A DNA stretch of 64,000 bases from NCBI RefSeq assembly GCF_005222485.1, contig NZ_CP029078.1:7503501-7567500 (forward strand). Reading direction: 5' to 3'. The DNA comes from Streptomyces griseoviridis (GTDB lineage Bacteria > Actinomycetota > Actinomycetes > Streptomycetales > Streptomycetaceae). A model generated the notes under the pieces. That model ran no database searches. It was not told where the DNA came from and saw only the letters and a list, made by a program, of their open reading frames with translations. Below are positions 46,382 through 53,646 of the stretch, piece after piece; position 1 is the stretch's first letter; the number at the start of each line of letters is the position of its first letter. The position numbers and the translations under genes were made by a program.

Positions 46382-47176
46382 TCAGGACGCCACCGGCTCC
46401 CGCGTCAGCTCCAGCATCAGCGCCACCTCGTCCGCCCGGCCCCGGCCGACGCCGTCCGCCACGGTCCTGGACGTCCCGCGCAGCCACAGCACATCGCGGC
46501 CGAACGACCAGACCAGGGCGGCCAGGGCGATCGACGTCACCGCGCACGTGGCCCAGAACGGCAGGCAGCCCGAGGCCGCGAGGAGCAGGAGGACGCCCTG
46601 GAGGGCCGCCACCGTCTTGCGGGCCGTGCTCGGCGGCAGCGGCGCGTTCAGCCAGGGCAGCACCCGCGCCGCGGCGACGAACGCGTACCGCATCCCGCCG
46701 ATCAGCAGCACCCACGGCCCGAGCCTCGTCGACACGTACACGCTGAGCACCAGGATCAGGAACGCGTCGACCTCCATGTCGAACCGCGCGCCGAGCGGCG
46801 TCGAGGTGCCGGTGCGCCGGGCCACCTTGCCGTCCACGCCGTCCAGGATCAGCGCCACCGCCGTCAGACCGACGAACACCGTGACCGGCGGCGCGCTCTC
46901 GAAGGAGTCCGCGACCAGCGCCGTCACCCCGCCCACCAGGGTCGCCCGGCCGAGTGTCACCCGGTTGGCCGGGCCGAACGACCGCGGCCTGGTGCGGTGC
47001 AGCGCCCGGGAGAGCACCGCCCAGGTGGCGACGGCGAAGGCGACACCGGTCAGCCAGCCCGCGGGCCCCAGTCCGATCGCCGAGCCGAGCAGGGCGAGCA
47101 ACAGGATCTGAACGCCCGCTCCCACCGCGGTCTCCTGCTGGACCAGCCTCGCGTCGTACGTGTTGTTCAGGGCCAC
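46382..47176 (-). CDS. CDP-alcohol phosphatidyltransferase-family membrane protein
   Basis: A 264-residue enzyme with about six membrane helices. The catalytic motif DGxxARxxGxxxxxGxxxDxxxD is complete in [20 protein letters not shown] followed by EVD (about residues 122-144). Such enzymes move a phosphatidyl or similar group from a CDP-activated donor to an alcohol such as inositol or glycerol phosphate. GTG 47176 has GGAGG 7 nt upstream. Divergent (108 bp) from the dehydrogenase that opens the FAPy cluster, so it may share its regulation. Confidence 0.85.
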
Positions 47177-47284
47177 CGCACATCCTCCGGCCGTATGACA
47201 GAGTCGATCAGCGCCGCGTACCGTCCGCGGCCTGTGCACACCTCGGTACGTGAACAACTTCCCGATCGTTCAGGAGGACGTCCG

Positions 47285-48256
47285 ATGAAGCGGACCGCCC
47301 ACGCGTTCTGGCTGGACCGTCCGGGCCAGGGCGCCCTACGCGCTGTCCAGCTGCCGCAGCCGGGCGCGGACGACGTCGTCGTGCGCGCGCTGTACTCCGG
47401 GGTCAGCCGCGGCACCGAGACCCTGGTGTTCCGCGGCGGCGTCCCGGCCAGCCAGCACGCGGCGATGCGCGCGCCCTTCCAGGAGGGCGAGTTCCCCGGC
47501 CCGGTGAAGTACGGCTACCTGAGCGTCGGCACGGTCGAGGAGGGCCCGGCGGCGCTCGTCGGCCGCACGGTGTTCTGCCTCTACCCGCACCAGACCCGGT
47601 ACGTCGTCCCGGCCGCCGCCGTCACCGTCGTGCCGGACGACGTGCCCGCCGCGCGCGCCGTCCTCGCCGGGACCGTGGAGACCGCCGTCAACGCGCTCTG
47701 GGACGCCGCGCCGCTGATCGGCGACCGGATCACGGTGGTCGGCGGCGGCATGGTCGGCTGCTCGGTCGCCGCGCTGCTCGCCCGGTTCCCCGGCGTACGC
47801 GTCCAGTTGGTCGACGCCGACCCGGCCCGCGCCGCCGTCGCCGCCGCCCTGGGCGTCGACTTCGCGCTCCCCGCCGACGCCCTCGGCGAACGCGACCTCG
47901 TCGTGCACGCGAGCGCCACCGAACAGGGCCTCGCCCGCGCCCTCGAACTCCTCACGCCCGAGGGCACCGTCCTCGAACTGAGCTGGTACGGCGACCGCAA
48001 GGTCTCCCTGCCGCTCGGCGAGGCGTTCCACTCCCGCCGCCTGGTCATCCGCGGCAGCCAGGTCGGCACCGTCTCCCCGGCCCGCCCCGGCCGCAGTTAC
48101 GCCGACCGGCTCGCGCTCGCCCTCGAACTCCTCGCCGACCCGGCGCTCGACGCCCTCATCACCGGCGAGTCCGCCTTCGAGGAGCTGCCCGAGGTACTCC
48201 CCAAGCTGGCGGACGGGGCCATTGCGGCCCTCTGTCACCTGATCCGGTACTCCTGA
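47285..48256 (+). CDS. zinc-type alcohol dehydrogenase-like oxidoreductase
   Basis: A 323-residue medium-chain dehydrogenase-like protein, somewhat short. The N-terminal GroES-like domain has [20 protein letters not shown], lacking the structural-zinc cysteines, and the Rossmann motif is [18 protein letters not shown] (about 154-171) with the NAD-discriminating Asp in VDADPARA. This resembles the BchC-like branch of oxidoreductases. ATG 47285 has AGGAGG. First gene of the plus-strand run that continues with the PTPS-like gene after 115 bp. Confidence 0.8.
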
Positions 48257-48371
48257 CCTGAGAAAAGAGTGAGACCGGGCTGAACAAGGGGAACCCGACA
48301 GCCGTACTACACGGCACCCCCGGCACGGACCAGCAGGGGGACCAGAGGCTCCGCACCTGGAGGGTCGTCCG

Positions 48372-52316: not shown

Positions 52317-52948
52317 CCGGACATTCCGAGGGTCAAGAGATGACGACGGTCGTCCGCGACGAAATCGGAGGTCTCATATCCGGGTCGGAGAAATTCGGGA
52401 TGGGCGTGCAGCAGGATGGAGGTCTCGATTTCCCCCGCGTGCATGTCGGTGAGCAGCGAGGTGACCACCCCCGCCCGCCCCCTGGCCGCCTCCCAGTCCT
52501 CCGCGGCGGGGAACAGCGCCATCCGCTCGCCGCGGGCCGAGGACTCCTGGACGACGTTGCCCAGCACGTAGTTCCCGCCGTGCCCGTTCACCACCACCAG
52601 GGCGTCGACGCCGGAGCGGCGGAGCGAGGCGGCTATGTCGCTCACCACCGCGTGCAGGGTCACCGCCGAGATGCTCACGGTGCCCGGCCAGCCGGCGTGC
52701 TCGTGCGAACAGGAGATGGTCACCGGAGGGAGGAGGTGCACCGGGAACGCCGCGGCGATCTCGCGGGCCACGGCACAGGCGACCAGGGTGTCGGTCGCCA
52801 GGGGAAGGAACGGACCGTGCTGCTCGAAACTCCCCACCGGAAGAACGGCGACCTGCGTTGAGACGCCCGCCGCCCTGGTCCGTACCTCTTCCGTGGTGTC
52901 CGCCGGCACCAGACCTTCCGCCGCCGTACGCGCGCCCGAACCACTCAT
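52172..52948 (-). CDS. creatininase-family hydrolase, candidate FAPy deformylase
   Basis: A 258-residue creatininase-family metal hydrolase. The metal ligands are in SFEQHGPFLPLATDT (Glu/His/Asp), VNGHGGN (His) and MHAGEIETS (Glu). Archaeal ArfB, which removes the formyl group from FAPy in riboflavin and F420 synthesis, belongs to this family. The adjacent divergent GTP cyclohydrolase paralogue is predicted to make exactly FAPy, so this enzyme is its probable partner; mycofactocin-system and creatinine hydrolases are the alternatives. ATG 52948; only 38 bp separate it from the divergent gene. Confidence 0.8.
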   Translation of the reverse strand: MSGSGARTAAEGLVPADTTEEVRTRAAGVSTQVAVLPVGSFEQHGPFLPLATDTLVACAVAREIAAAFPVHLLPPVTISCSHEHAGWPGTVSISAVTLHAVVSDIAASLRRSGVDALVVVNGHGGNYVLGNVVQESSARGERMALFPAAEDWEAARGRAGVVTSLLTDMHAGEIETSILLHAHPEFLRPGYETSDFVADDRRHLLTLGMSGYTDSGVIGRPSLGSAEKGKELLASLVDSFGAYFSLLSQPEAGSARGA

Positions 52949-52986
52949 TTCTTCACGGCCTTTCGTCTCTGTTTAGGAATCAGATC

Positions 52987-53646
52987 ATGACAGAAAAAAT
53001 CGGCGTACTCGTCAAGAAGTCAGCGCAGCGCACGGGCGTGGAACGGATCGTGAATGCGCCGCTGCCCACCGTGTACGGGGAATTCCGCGCGGTGGGGTAC
53101 CTGGACCACGACCGCGGTGACGAGCAGGTGGCCCTGGTGCACGGCGACATCGGCGCGGAGGGCGTGCTGACCCGGCTGCACTCCGAGTGCCTGACGGGCG
53201 ACGCGTTCGGGTCCCAGCACTGCGAGTGCGGTGACCAACTGGCGTCCGCGCTGCGGGCGGTGGTCGCCGAGGGGGCCGGCATCGTCGTCTATCTGCGCGG
53301 CCACGAGGGGCGCGGTATCGGTCTGCTCGGCAAGCTGCGGGCGATGGCCCTGCAGGCCGAGGGCCTGGACACCGTGGAGGCGAACCTGGCCCTCGGGCTG
53401 CCGGTCGACGCCCGGGACTACGGGGTGGCCGCCGGGATGCTCCACGACCTCGGGGTGAACTCGGTGCGGCTGATGTCCAACAACCCGCGCAAGCGGGAGG
53501 CGTTGGTGCGGCACGGCATCGAAGTGGCCGAGACCGTGCCGCTGTTGATAGCGCCGAGCGAGAACAACATCACCTATCTGCGCACCAAGCGGGAGCGGCT
53601 CGACCACCATCTGCCCCACCTGGACGCGGTCGCCCACCTGTCCTGA
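52987..53646 (+). CDS. GTP cyclohydrolase II paralogue, predicted FAPy-forming (Met120 type)
   Basis: A 219-residue GTP cyclohydrolase II. Zinc ligands are Cys68, Cys79 and Cys81 in HSECLTGDAFGSQHCECG. HEGRGIGLLGKLRAMALQ aligns with the E. coli segment holding catalytic-site Tyr105 (KIRAYALQ); here it is Met120. From published work on the three GCH II copies of S. coelicolor, the SCO6655 enzyme has Met at this place and stops at the formylamino-pyrimidine FAPy, while Tyr copies complete the reaction. I therefore predict FAPy synthesis. Start ATG 52987 with AGGA. Not a RibBA fusion. Confidence 0.9.
   Translation: MTEKIGVLVKKSAQRTGVERIVNAPLPTVYGEFRAVGYLDHDRGDEQVALVHGDIGAEGVLTRLHSECLTGDAFGSQHCECGDQLASALRAVVAEGAGIVVYLRGHEGRGIGLLGKLRAMALQAEGLDTVEANLALGLPVDARDYGVAAGMLHDLGVNSVRLMSNNPRKREALVRHGIEVAETVPLLIAPSENNITYLRTKRERLDHHLPHLDAVAHLS

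Follow-up and report, generated by a model that had tools for sequence, protein, structure and literature searches.

A conserved Streptomyces gene module that probably diverts a GTP-derived diaminopyrimidine from riboflavin synthesis by means of a Met120 GTP cyclohydrolase II and a creatininase-family protein

Toxoflavin-type pathways start with a dedicated GTP cyclohydrolase II (GCHII) and lead to a methylated product. Among the GCHIIs of Streptomyces coelicolor, a single residue reportedly decides whether 2-amino-5-formylamino-6-ribosylamino-4(3H)-pyrimidinone 5'-phosphate (FAPy) is formed, a result ascribed to Spoonamore in 2006, and SCO6655 presumably halts at FAPy owing to its Met120. We know of no assay of GCHII variants with His, Leu or Gln at this position. 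SCO6655 is, as we understand it, an assayed protein of the region SCO6650-SCO6655, while SCO6650, the structure of which is solved (PDB 3d7j), is presumably devoid of the zinc-binding and catalytic residues that PTPS has; to our knowledge, earlier papers on both proteins left their function open. In the literature extracts available, SCO6655 occurs in one metabolic-model table. Archaea with ArfA and ArfB use a two-step route from GTP by way of FAPy, and GCH_III makes this compound (PMC7288161). In Sinorhizobium, the annotated creatininase BrbF (SMc02977) deformylates FAPy to 2,5-diamino-6-ribosylamino-4(3H)-pyrimidinone 5'-phosphate (DARoPP), and its partner, a FAPy-making cyclohydrolase named 'BrbG', was yet undiscovered as of 2022 (PMC9478397).

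The window analysed here, a stretch of 64,000 nucleotides from Streptomyces griseoviridis, contains the same region as SCO6650-SCO6655, a correspondence overlooked in the first-pass annotation; the gene order fits the S. coelicolor numbering if the Met-type GCHII is SCO6655, and CREA (defined below) would by the same order correspond to SCO6654. The cluster probably represents the Streptomyces version of a widely distributed module which diverts a GTP-derived diaminopyrimidine from riboflavin, here through FAPy and then a creatininase-family protein. All eight genes previously described at positions 46382-53646 were found there, seven of them with a Pfam match above the cut-off. They encode a CDP-alcohol phosphatidyltransferase family protein (CDPAP; 46382..47176, minus strand, start codon approximate; PF01066, CDP-OH_P_transf, 49.7 bits), a BchC-like medium-chain dehydrogenase (ADH; 47285..48256, plus strand), a PTPS/QueD-like protein with a changed active site (PTPS-like; 48372..48770, plus strand; PF01242, 83.8 bits), a GT4 glycosyltransferase (48767..49951, plus strand; PF00534, Glycos_transf_1, 102.4 bits), a SAM-dependent methyltransferase (MT; 49948..50949, plus strand; PF13649, Methyltransf_25, 28.0 bits for a cut-off of 27), a flippase-type membrane protein (FLIP; 50946..52316, plus strand; PF03706, LPG_synthase_TM, 113.0 bits), a creatininase-family amidohydrolase proposed to deformylate FAPy (CREA; 52172..52948, minus strand; PF02633, Creatininase, 207.5 bits) and a GCHII with Met120, proposed to be of FAPy type (52987..53646, plus strand; PF00925, GTP_cyclohydro2, 218.0 bits). 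ADH is of the MDR type, with 29.4 bits on ADH_zinc_N (under the Pfam cut-off of 31.8) and 50.1 bits on its best NCBIfam model, bchC (below the cut-off of 291). The PTPS-like, GT4, MT and FLIP genes are joined by 4-base end-start overlaps (48767-48770, 49948-49951 and 50946-50949), and, as described earlier, CREA and GCHII are divergent, with starts at 52948 (minus strand) and 52987 (plus strand), 38 bp apart.

Distribution was analysed over 99 loci of the host's class, namely the window and 98 slices, or neighbourhoods of the PTPS-like gene, in which module genes were assigned by profile searches. The slices came from 20 of 26 non-window positives (six dropped), from all 37 other-family positives (38 slices), from 20 of 21 new positives (all but G878, which lay at a contig edge) and from 20 of 35 new positive genomes. 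PTPS-like genes were present in 99 loci, ADH and GT4 in 98 each, FLIP in 89, CDPAP in 87, MT in 85, GCHII in 74 and CREA in 42. The ADH, PTPS-like and GT4 core was complete in 97 of the 99 loci, window included; the exceptions were L176, which begins at a contig start and is without ADH, and L050, without GT4. Among the 80 named Streptomyces loci, 74 had all eight genes, with identical orientations in at least 73 (those with order printed); five of the six others were truncated by a contig end and the last, L119, consisted of PTPS-like alone. Co-occurrence of the gene families in other genomes, which the first-pass annotation had named in advance as a test of its proposal, is thus borne out, and the gene set is a conserved module, more than a chance grouping. 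Its core also recurs beyond Streptomyces in proteobacteria and haloarchaea: consecutive ADH, PTPS-like and GT4 genes were found in Methylosinus, Thiodictyon, Neorhizobium, Peteryoungia, Microbacterium and two haloarchaeal plasmids. The modules of Palleronia and Peteryoungia carry a Tyr GCHII plus RibD, and on two Haloarcula plasmids CDPAP is separated from ADH-PTPS-MT by a cyclohydrolase IIa, identified as GCH_III (272.6 bits) in the one plasmid of the two that was scanned.

The PTPS-like protein aligned end to end with 3d7j_A (SCO6650; E 3e-78) and, as judged by sequence, is the orthologue of SCO6650. It shares family PF01242 with PTPS and QueD, and Glu120 was kept in 99 of 99 loci, but Ala30 replaces the zinc-motif His of 2g64 (97/99) and Ala24 its Cys (98/99). 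The full zinc His motif and the catalytic Cys of PTPS/QueD are therefore missing from this protein, which scored 37 bits on the QueD model against a cut-off of 89.

The GCHII of the window belongs to its family with 220.9 bits on TIGR00505 (cut-off 205.85). As the first-pass annotation stated, its cysteines C68, C79 and C81, which we take to be the zinc ligands, are kept, being invariant in 20 aligned relatives, and its Met120 stands opposite Tyr105 of chain 2bz0_A in the alignment, so that the Tyr of this catalytic position is absent. On the basis of this residue, the protein is proposed as a candidate FAPy-forming GCHII. All 74 named Streptomyces loci having both GCHII and CREA carried Met at the position. 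The 42 module GCHIIs without Tyr carried Met (19), His (16), Leu (6) or Gln (1), and in the GCHII tree the non-Tyr proteins form one side of a branch, suggesting that the replacement of Tyr probably arose once. Two other GCHIIs are encoded in the host genome, both with Tyr, one of which adjoins a reductase-deaminase fusion.

The residue class of GCHII tracked the presence of CREA with no exception in the 74 loci having a module GCHII. CREA was in the slice in 41 of 42 non-Tyr loci, and in the 42nd, L159, it lay outside the slice in the same genome, some 13 kb away from the PTPS-like gene; it occurred in none of 32 Tyr loci (31 called by pattern, L247 by eye). In a tree of ADH, PTPS-like and GT4 with 93 rows, each trait changed seven times and six of six independent pairs on well supported branches were concordant (sign test, p 0.031); this tree omits five loci with short slices (L150, L167, L176, L231 and L243) and L050, which is without GT4, and L159 was entered as CREA-positive from the whole-genome search. 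The strength of this agreement is limited, as most of the independent pairs represent joint losses and a single deletion could remove both genes in Streptomyces, where they are adjacent. In many f17 loci GCHII and CREA stand at opposite ends of the module and are still kept or lost together. Slices without GCHII amounted to 25 of 99, which means that a dedicated supply is not obligatory. Whole-genome searches covered 21 of these 25 loci (all but G158 with L150, G204, G898 and G934): every GCHII found had Tyr (29 places minus the ones in G496, G330 and G239, and a further 11), and 20 of the 21 genomes had no CREA above 300 bits. Among 394 genomes of the host's class, with the best 7-10 first-look candidates scored per genome, 33 had CREA and a PTPS-like gene, 24 the PTPS-like gene only, 10 CREA only and 327 neither (Fisher p 6e-24, without correction for kinship). 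The covariation and the six concordant pairs make it most likely that Met-type GCHII and CREA together replace the one-step enzyme. They lend support to the earlier suggestion that a FAPy-type GCHII would work with a creatininase-family deformylase. Since the Tyr-replaced GCHII is inherited with CREA, one GCHII residue would predict a two-step or a one-step route.

In CREA, residues E42, H44, D53, H123 and E173 were invariant in 22 aligned sequences, which places the protein in the creatininase superfamily; we take this E-x-H...D, H, E arrangement to be the creatininase metal pattern. Its assignment to the family of archaeal ArfB in the first-pass annotation did not hold, with 36.3 bits on the ArfB NCBIfam model against a cut-off of 180. 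Thus the locus differs from ArfA/ArfB in both proteins, its cyclohydrolase being of the GCHII family, although GCH_III itself occurs in the haloarchaeal version of the module. Membership of MftE was also rejected, the NCBIfam cut-off being 172, and the protein scored below the creatininase cut-off of 235 as well. By annotation and proposed chemistry, CREA resembles BrbF, since the reaction suggested for it, from FAPy to DARoPP, is the same; BrbF serves riboflavin and its partner was not found, whereas CREA has its putative partner adjacent, in a setting that is not that of riboflavin. A GCHII with its catalytic Tyr replaced, inherited together with a creatininase-family enzyme, is a concrete candidate for the FAPy-making cyclohydrolase of BrbF bacteria described as undiscovered in that paper (PMC9478397). 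CREA relatives also occur alone: besides the 10 genomes mentioned above, G088 has one CREA at a distant site, and for three plasmid copies the annotation lists no GCHII in the surrounding 6 kb. Some CREA-like proteins may therefore act otherwise.

Other explanations of the GCHII and CREA pair have to be considered. The pair might be a second source of DARoPP for the riboflavin pathway, as with BrbF, the other genes being unrelated neighbours. The role of BrbF in Sinorhizobium (PMC9478397) and the 37 of 42 non-Tyr loci whose slice is without a RibD_C reductase are consistent with this, but the genome already holds two Tyr GCHIIs, one of them next to a reductase-deaminase fusion, the Pfam scan found neither riboflavin synthase nor lumazine synthase among the eight module proteins, and the cyclohydrolase stays with ADH, PTPS-like, GT4, MT, FLIP and CDPAP across many families of the host's class and in Peteryoungia; we consider such a supply role distinctly improbable. 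In agreement with the earlier claim of a pathway separate from riboflavin, two deaminase queries matched in just 3 of 99 module loci (one match weak) and not in the window, so that the deaminase which would accompany the reductase in riboflavin synthesis is rare in the module and lacking from that of the window.

Alternatively, FAPy or another formylamino intermediate could be used as such, with CREA acting late, by deformylation or by cutting another amide. RibD_C was present in 30 of 32 Tyr loci but only in 5 of 42 non-Tyr ones, and as it rarely shares a locus with CREA, what follows the cyclohydrolase reaction may vary from one version of the module to another. Nevertheless, the relatives with Tyr GCHII, which should give no formyl group, keep the same downstream genes, and CREA adjoins a RibD_C gene on the same strand in five loci; a late role of CREA is unlikely in view of these data. 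Finally, CREA could be an MftE-like peptidase or a creatininase linked to non-Tyr GCHII by hitch-hiking. MftE is indeed its nearest NCBIfam model (129.6 bits) and orphan relatives exist, but both cut-offs were missed and the joint retention or loss from opposite module ends in f17 loci makes mere hitch-hiking a very unlikely explanation.

In the reading we prefer, GCHII-Met120 would open GTP and stop at FAPy, and CREA would deformylate this to DARoPP, which an ordinary Tyr GCHII produces alone. Sequence comparison shows the covariation behind these two steps and the conservation of the gene set. A RibD_C reductase may then convert the ribosyl group into ribityl, the order of this and the following step being conjectural; it is encoded within the module in many relatives and would be supplied from elsewhere in the genome in the case of the window, the module of which has none. 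The copy found elsewhere is fused to a deaminase and may serve riboflavin. Distant RibD_C proteins at 239-256 bits were found in 11 of 11 module-positive Streptomyces without a local copy versus 2 of 8 module-negative ones, but 18 of 19 slices showed a riboflavin-type deaminase fused to or beside them, and they were therefore not counted as evidence for a module step. As the module has no deaminase, the 2-amino group would stay. The PTPS-like protein would subsequently bind the pyrimidine or a derived pterin, with ADH oxidising or reducing, MT methylating and GT4 glycosylating it, and CDPAP and FLIP may attach the compound to a phospholipid and transfer it across the membrane.

The title 'FAPy-derived' given to the cluster in the first-pass annotation is too narrow, because the same module elsewhere uses a Tyr GCHII without CREA, or GCH_III. 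In view of the Tyr-GCHII relatives we reject a purely FAPy-based product, and these differences in cyclohydrolase suggest that FAPy is a detour confined to certain lineages. What all versions share as input is most likely the diaminopyrimidine that deformylation leaves. A gene set conserved from actinobacteria to haloarchaea thus has a probable shared precursor that can be named, and which can therefore be labelled and chased. Among the listed titles and abstract openings of CC-licensed papers, none dealt with the module, consistent with the earlier remark that its product matched no known compound. Tentatively, and with considerable doubt, the product may be envisaged as an undescribed, pan-prokaryotic membrane compound, a GTP-derived ribityl-diaminopyrimidine or pterin that is methylated, glycosylated, made a phospholipid head group and flipped outward. 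The CDP-alcohol transferase would act on its ribityl chain, and in some lineages the compound would be passed on by a sulfatase-like transferase that is part of one fusion protein with this enzyme. At least three cyclohydrolase front ends would feed this compound: Tyr GCHII, non-Tyr GCHII with the creatininase-family deformylase, and archaeal GCH_III. The CDP-alcohol transferase motif was intact in 86 of 87 CDPAP proteins, and a sulfatase-like domain was fused to CDPAP in 11 loci. It is worth adding that the sulfatase-like protein and the RibD_C reductase, both recurrent members, had been overlooked in the first-pass annotation.

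The eight genes at 46382-53646 of the window were recovered with the families and spacing given in the first-pass annotation, in a genome of one contig (8.96 Mb) whose closest proteins and loci were from Streptomyces. Met120 of the GTP cyclohydrolase II (GCHII) indeed lay opposite Tyr105 in an alignment to PDB chain 2bz0_A, and both other GCHIIs of this genome carried Tyr. SCO6650 (PDB 3d7j) matched the PTPS-like protein of the window from end to end, so that the module corresponds to the SCO6650-SCO6655 region. According to Spoonamore and Bandarian, SCO6655 reportedly halts at the formylamino pyrimidine FAPy owing to Met120, and SCO6650 is said to be without PTPS activity. 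At 52172-52316, the flippase-type (LPG_synthase_TM) and creatininase-family (CREA) genes are convergent and their 3' ends share 145 bases. In many Streptomyces slices a serine hydrolase gene remains next to the module on its downstream side (53672-54901 in the window), and some retain an OppA/OppBC/MFS set upstream (41765-46287); neither was seen in 38 slices from other families.

Among 150 genomes of the family, 27 carried the PTPS-like gene; at class level it was present in 57 of 394. Co-occurrence of the eight genes was borne out: 74 of the 80 named Streptomyces loci had all of them, five were truncated at a contig end and one (L119) had only the PTPS-like gene. A set of 99 loci (98 slices cut from PTPS-like-positive genomes, and the window) contained the PTPS-like gene in 99, a BchC-like dehydrogenase (ADH) and a GT4 glycosyltransferase in 98 each, the flippase-type protein in 89, a CDP-alcohol phosphatidyltransferase (CDPAP) in 87, with its motif intact in 86, a methyltransferase (MT) in 85, GCHII in 74, a RibD_C reductase in 44, CREA in 42 and a sulfatase-like protein in 32. 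The gene set first described is therefore real, but the module is larger, since relatives add the reductase and the sulfatase-like protein. The name 'sulfatase' is the annotation of a Peteryoungia gene, extended to actinobacterial copies from reading of their sequence; two copies scanned alone matched no Pfam family. This part was fused to CDPAP in 11 loci, and CDP-OH_P_transf was the only Pfam match of one fused copy. The same gene families persisted through shuffled order and strand in L175, L161, L162 and L164, an argument for a functional link that goes beyond a single operon. An insertion of about 3 kb, read as an MFS-transporter-like and a second methyltransferase-like gene, separates GT4 from MT in L149, L152 and L153.

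If CREA deformylates the product of the Met-type enzyme, its presence should coincide exactly with loss of the catalytic Tyr, and this prediction was tested. GCHII was non-Tyr in 42 loci (19 Met, 16 His, six Leu and one Gln), 41 of which had CREA inside the slice; in the remaining one (L159) it lay beyond the slice, some 13 kb away from the PTPS-like gene of that genome. None of the 32 Tyr loci had CREA, L247 being counted among them by eye as the residue pattern missed it. Of 25 loci without GCHII in the slice, one had CREA (L231, a 6 kb contig). Whole-genome searches of 21 of these 25 genomes found only Tyr GCHIIs, and module-type CREA above 300 bits was absent from 20; in the exception, G088, CREA was far from the module and the nearest genes called beside it resemble those of Streptomyces integrating elements.

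A GCHII tree of 91 rows placed the non-Tyr enzymes on one side of a branch (SH-aLRT 94), and Tyr was therefore probably lost once. On the ADH, PTPS and GT4 tree (93 rows), seven changes were needed for each trait and six of six independent pairs on well supported branches agreed (two-sided sign test, p 0.031, the lowest value possible with six pairs). Most pairs were losses of both traits together; in Streptomyces GCHII and CREA adjoin and a single deletion could remove both, but in many loci of group f17 they lie at opposite module ends. The deepest rows having GCHII showed Tyr, so that Tyr without CREA was read as the older state, the root being a midpoint placed for drawing only. The earlier interpretation as a FAPy-derived pathway stands in part: CREA tracks non-Tyr GCHII, but FAPy is demoted to a lineage-specific detour.

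This front end is a variant of already known chemistry. BrbF of Sinorhizobium, formerly annotated as a creatininase, is reported to convert FAPy phosphate to the diaminopyrimidine DARoPP, its partner cyclohydrolase being stated as not known (PMC9478397). CREA may be likened to BrbF in annotation and proposed reaction, and its deformylation of FAPy would thus be an activity already in print, placed in a new context. Across the class, CREA (E below 1e-60) was found in 43 genomes and the PTPS-like gene in 57; treating both 394-genome samples as identical genomes, 33 had both, 24 the PTPS-like gene only, 10 CREA only and 327 neither (Fisher p 6e-24, uncorrected for kinship). The 10 CREA-only genomes scored 325-372 bits, one copy having an internal stop codon. 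Four plasmid records with CREA were examined, one unannotated; the other three listed no GCHII within 6 kb, in gene tables that are incomplete. Together, these cases indicate that the CREA subfamily has members in another setting too. Creatininase-family relatives of module type lie away from any GCHII in L224 (G088), L303, L304 and L305. In L303 and L304 the gene immediately upstream of them is about 400 codons long, and L303 also has integrase genes nearby.

The RibD_C reductase (above 100 bits) was present in 30 of 32 Tyr loci, five of 42 non-Tyr loci and nine of 25 without GCHII, its recruits coming from two different subfamilies. Two deaminase queries gave matches in three of 99 loci (L248, L257 and, weakly, L178), and neither matched in the window. 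Elsewhere in the same genomes, RibD_C genes had a deaminase alongside in 18 of 19 slices, and RibD_C stood beside a Tyr GCHII in 10 of 11 module-positive Streptomyces slices. In the genome of the window, a RibD_C reductase near a Tyr GCHII is fused ahead of a deaminase domain (G000:C1:4391152-4393974; L281:9153-11975), the reverse of the usual RibD domain order; such a fusion may serve these genomes as their deaminase/reductase for riboflavin. Since deaminases are rare in the module and common beside distant RibD_C genes, the module most likely retains the 2-amino group, unlike riboflavin.

The best reading is that GCHII-Met would convert GTP to FAPy and CREA would convert FAPy to DARoPP, the ribosyl possibly being reduced to ribityl, after which the PTPS-like protein, ADH, MT and GT4 would act on the pyrimidine or on a pterin formed from it. 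In the PTPS-like protein, Ala30 occupies the position of a zinc-motif His of 2g64 and Ala24 that of its Cys (Ala in 97 and 98 of 99, respectively). As the active site is altered in a fixed way throughout the family, the protein probably takes a related compound as ligand and does not carry out the PTPS reaction. From CDPAP, the flippase-type protein and the sulfatase-like partner found elsewhere, the product may be linked to a lipid or to the surface.

Searching plasmids with the PTPS-like protein gave 25 records, of which 14 were examined, one unannotated; here too the gene tables are incomplete. ADH and PTPS genes were accompanied by GT4, MT, RibD, CDPAP, LPG_synthase_TM, ribA and sulfatase in Peteryoungia desertarenae; by CDPAP, GT4, MT, LPG_synthase_TM and RibD in the actinobacterium Microbacterium; by GT4, MT, RibD and CDPAP in Thiodictyon; by GT4 and RibD in Methylosinus; by GT4 in Neorhizobium, with RibD not among the genes listed nearby; by MT, RibD and ribA in Palleronia; and by MT and RibD on a rhodobacterial plasmid. 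Five haloarchaeal records had ADH-PTPS, followed by GT4 in two and MT in three. Two Haloarcula plasmid loci that closely resemble each other have a GTP cyclohydrolase IIa gene (L308:7178-7960 and L316:7178-7960) placed between those for CDPAP and ADH; the copy scanned was GCH_III (272.6 bits), an enzyme that forms FAPy (PMC7288161). In Haloarcula sinaiiensis, CDPAP and a gene of the creatininase family are found within 7 kb, but plasmids of this kind often hold several creatininase-family genes. The haloarchaeal PTPS proteins retain an HSH motif and share only 30-31% identity with that of the window, so their kinship is supported by gene neighbourhood more than by sequence. The GCHIIs of Palleronia and Peteryoungia keep Tyr, as read by eye, and no creatininase is listed within 9 kb of either locus, as the rule linking residue and CREA predicts.
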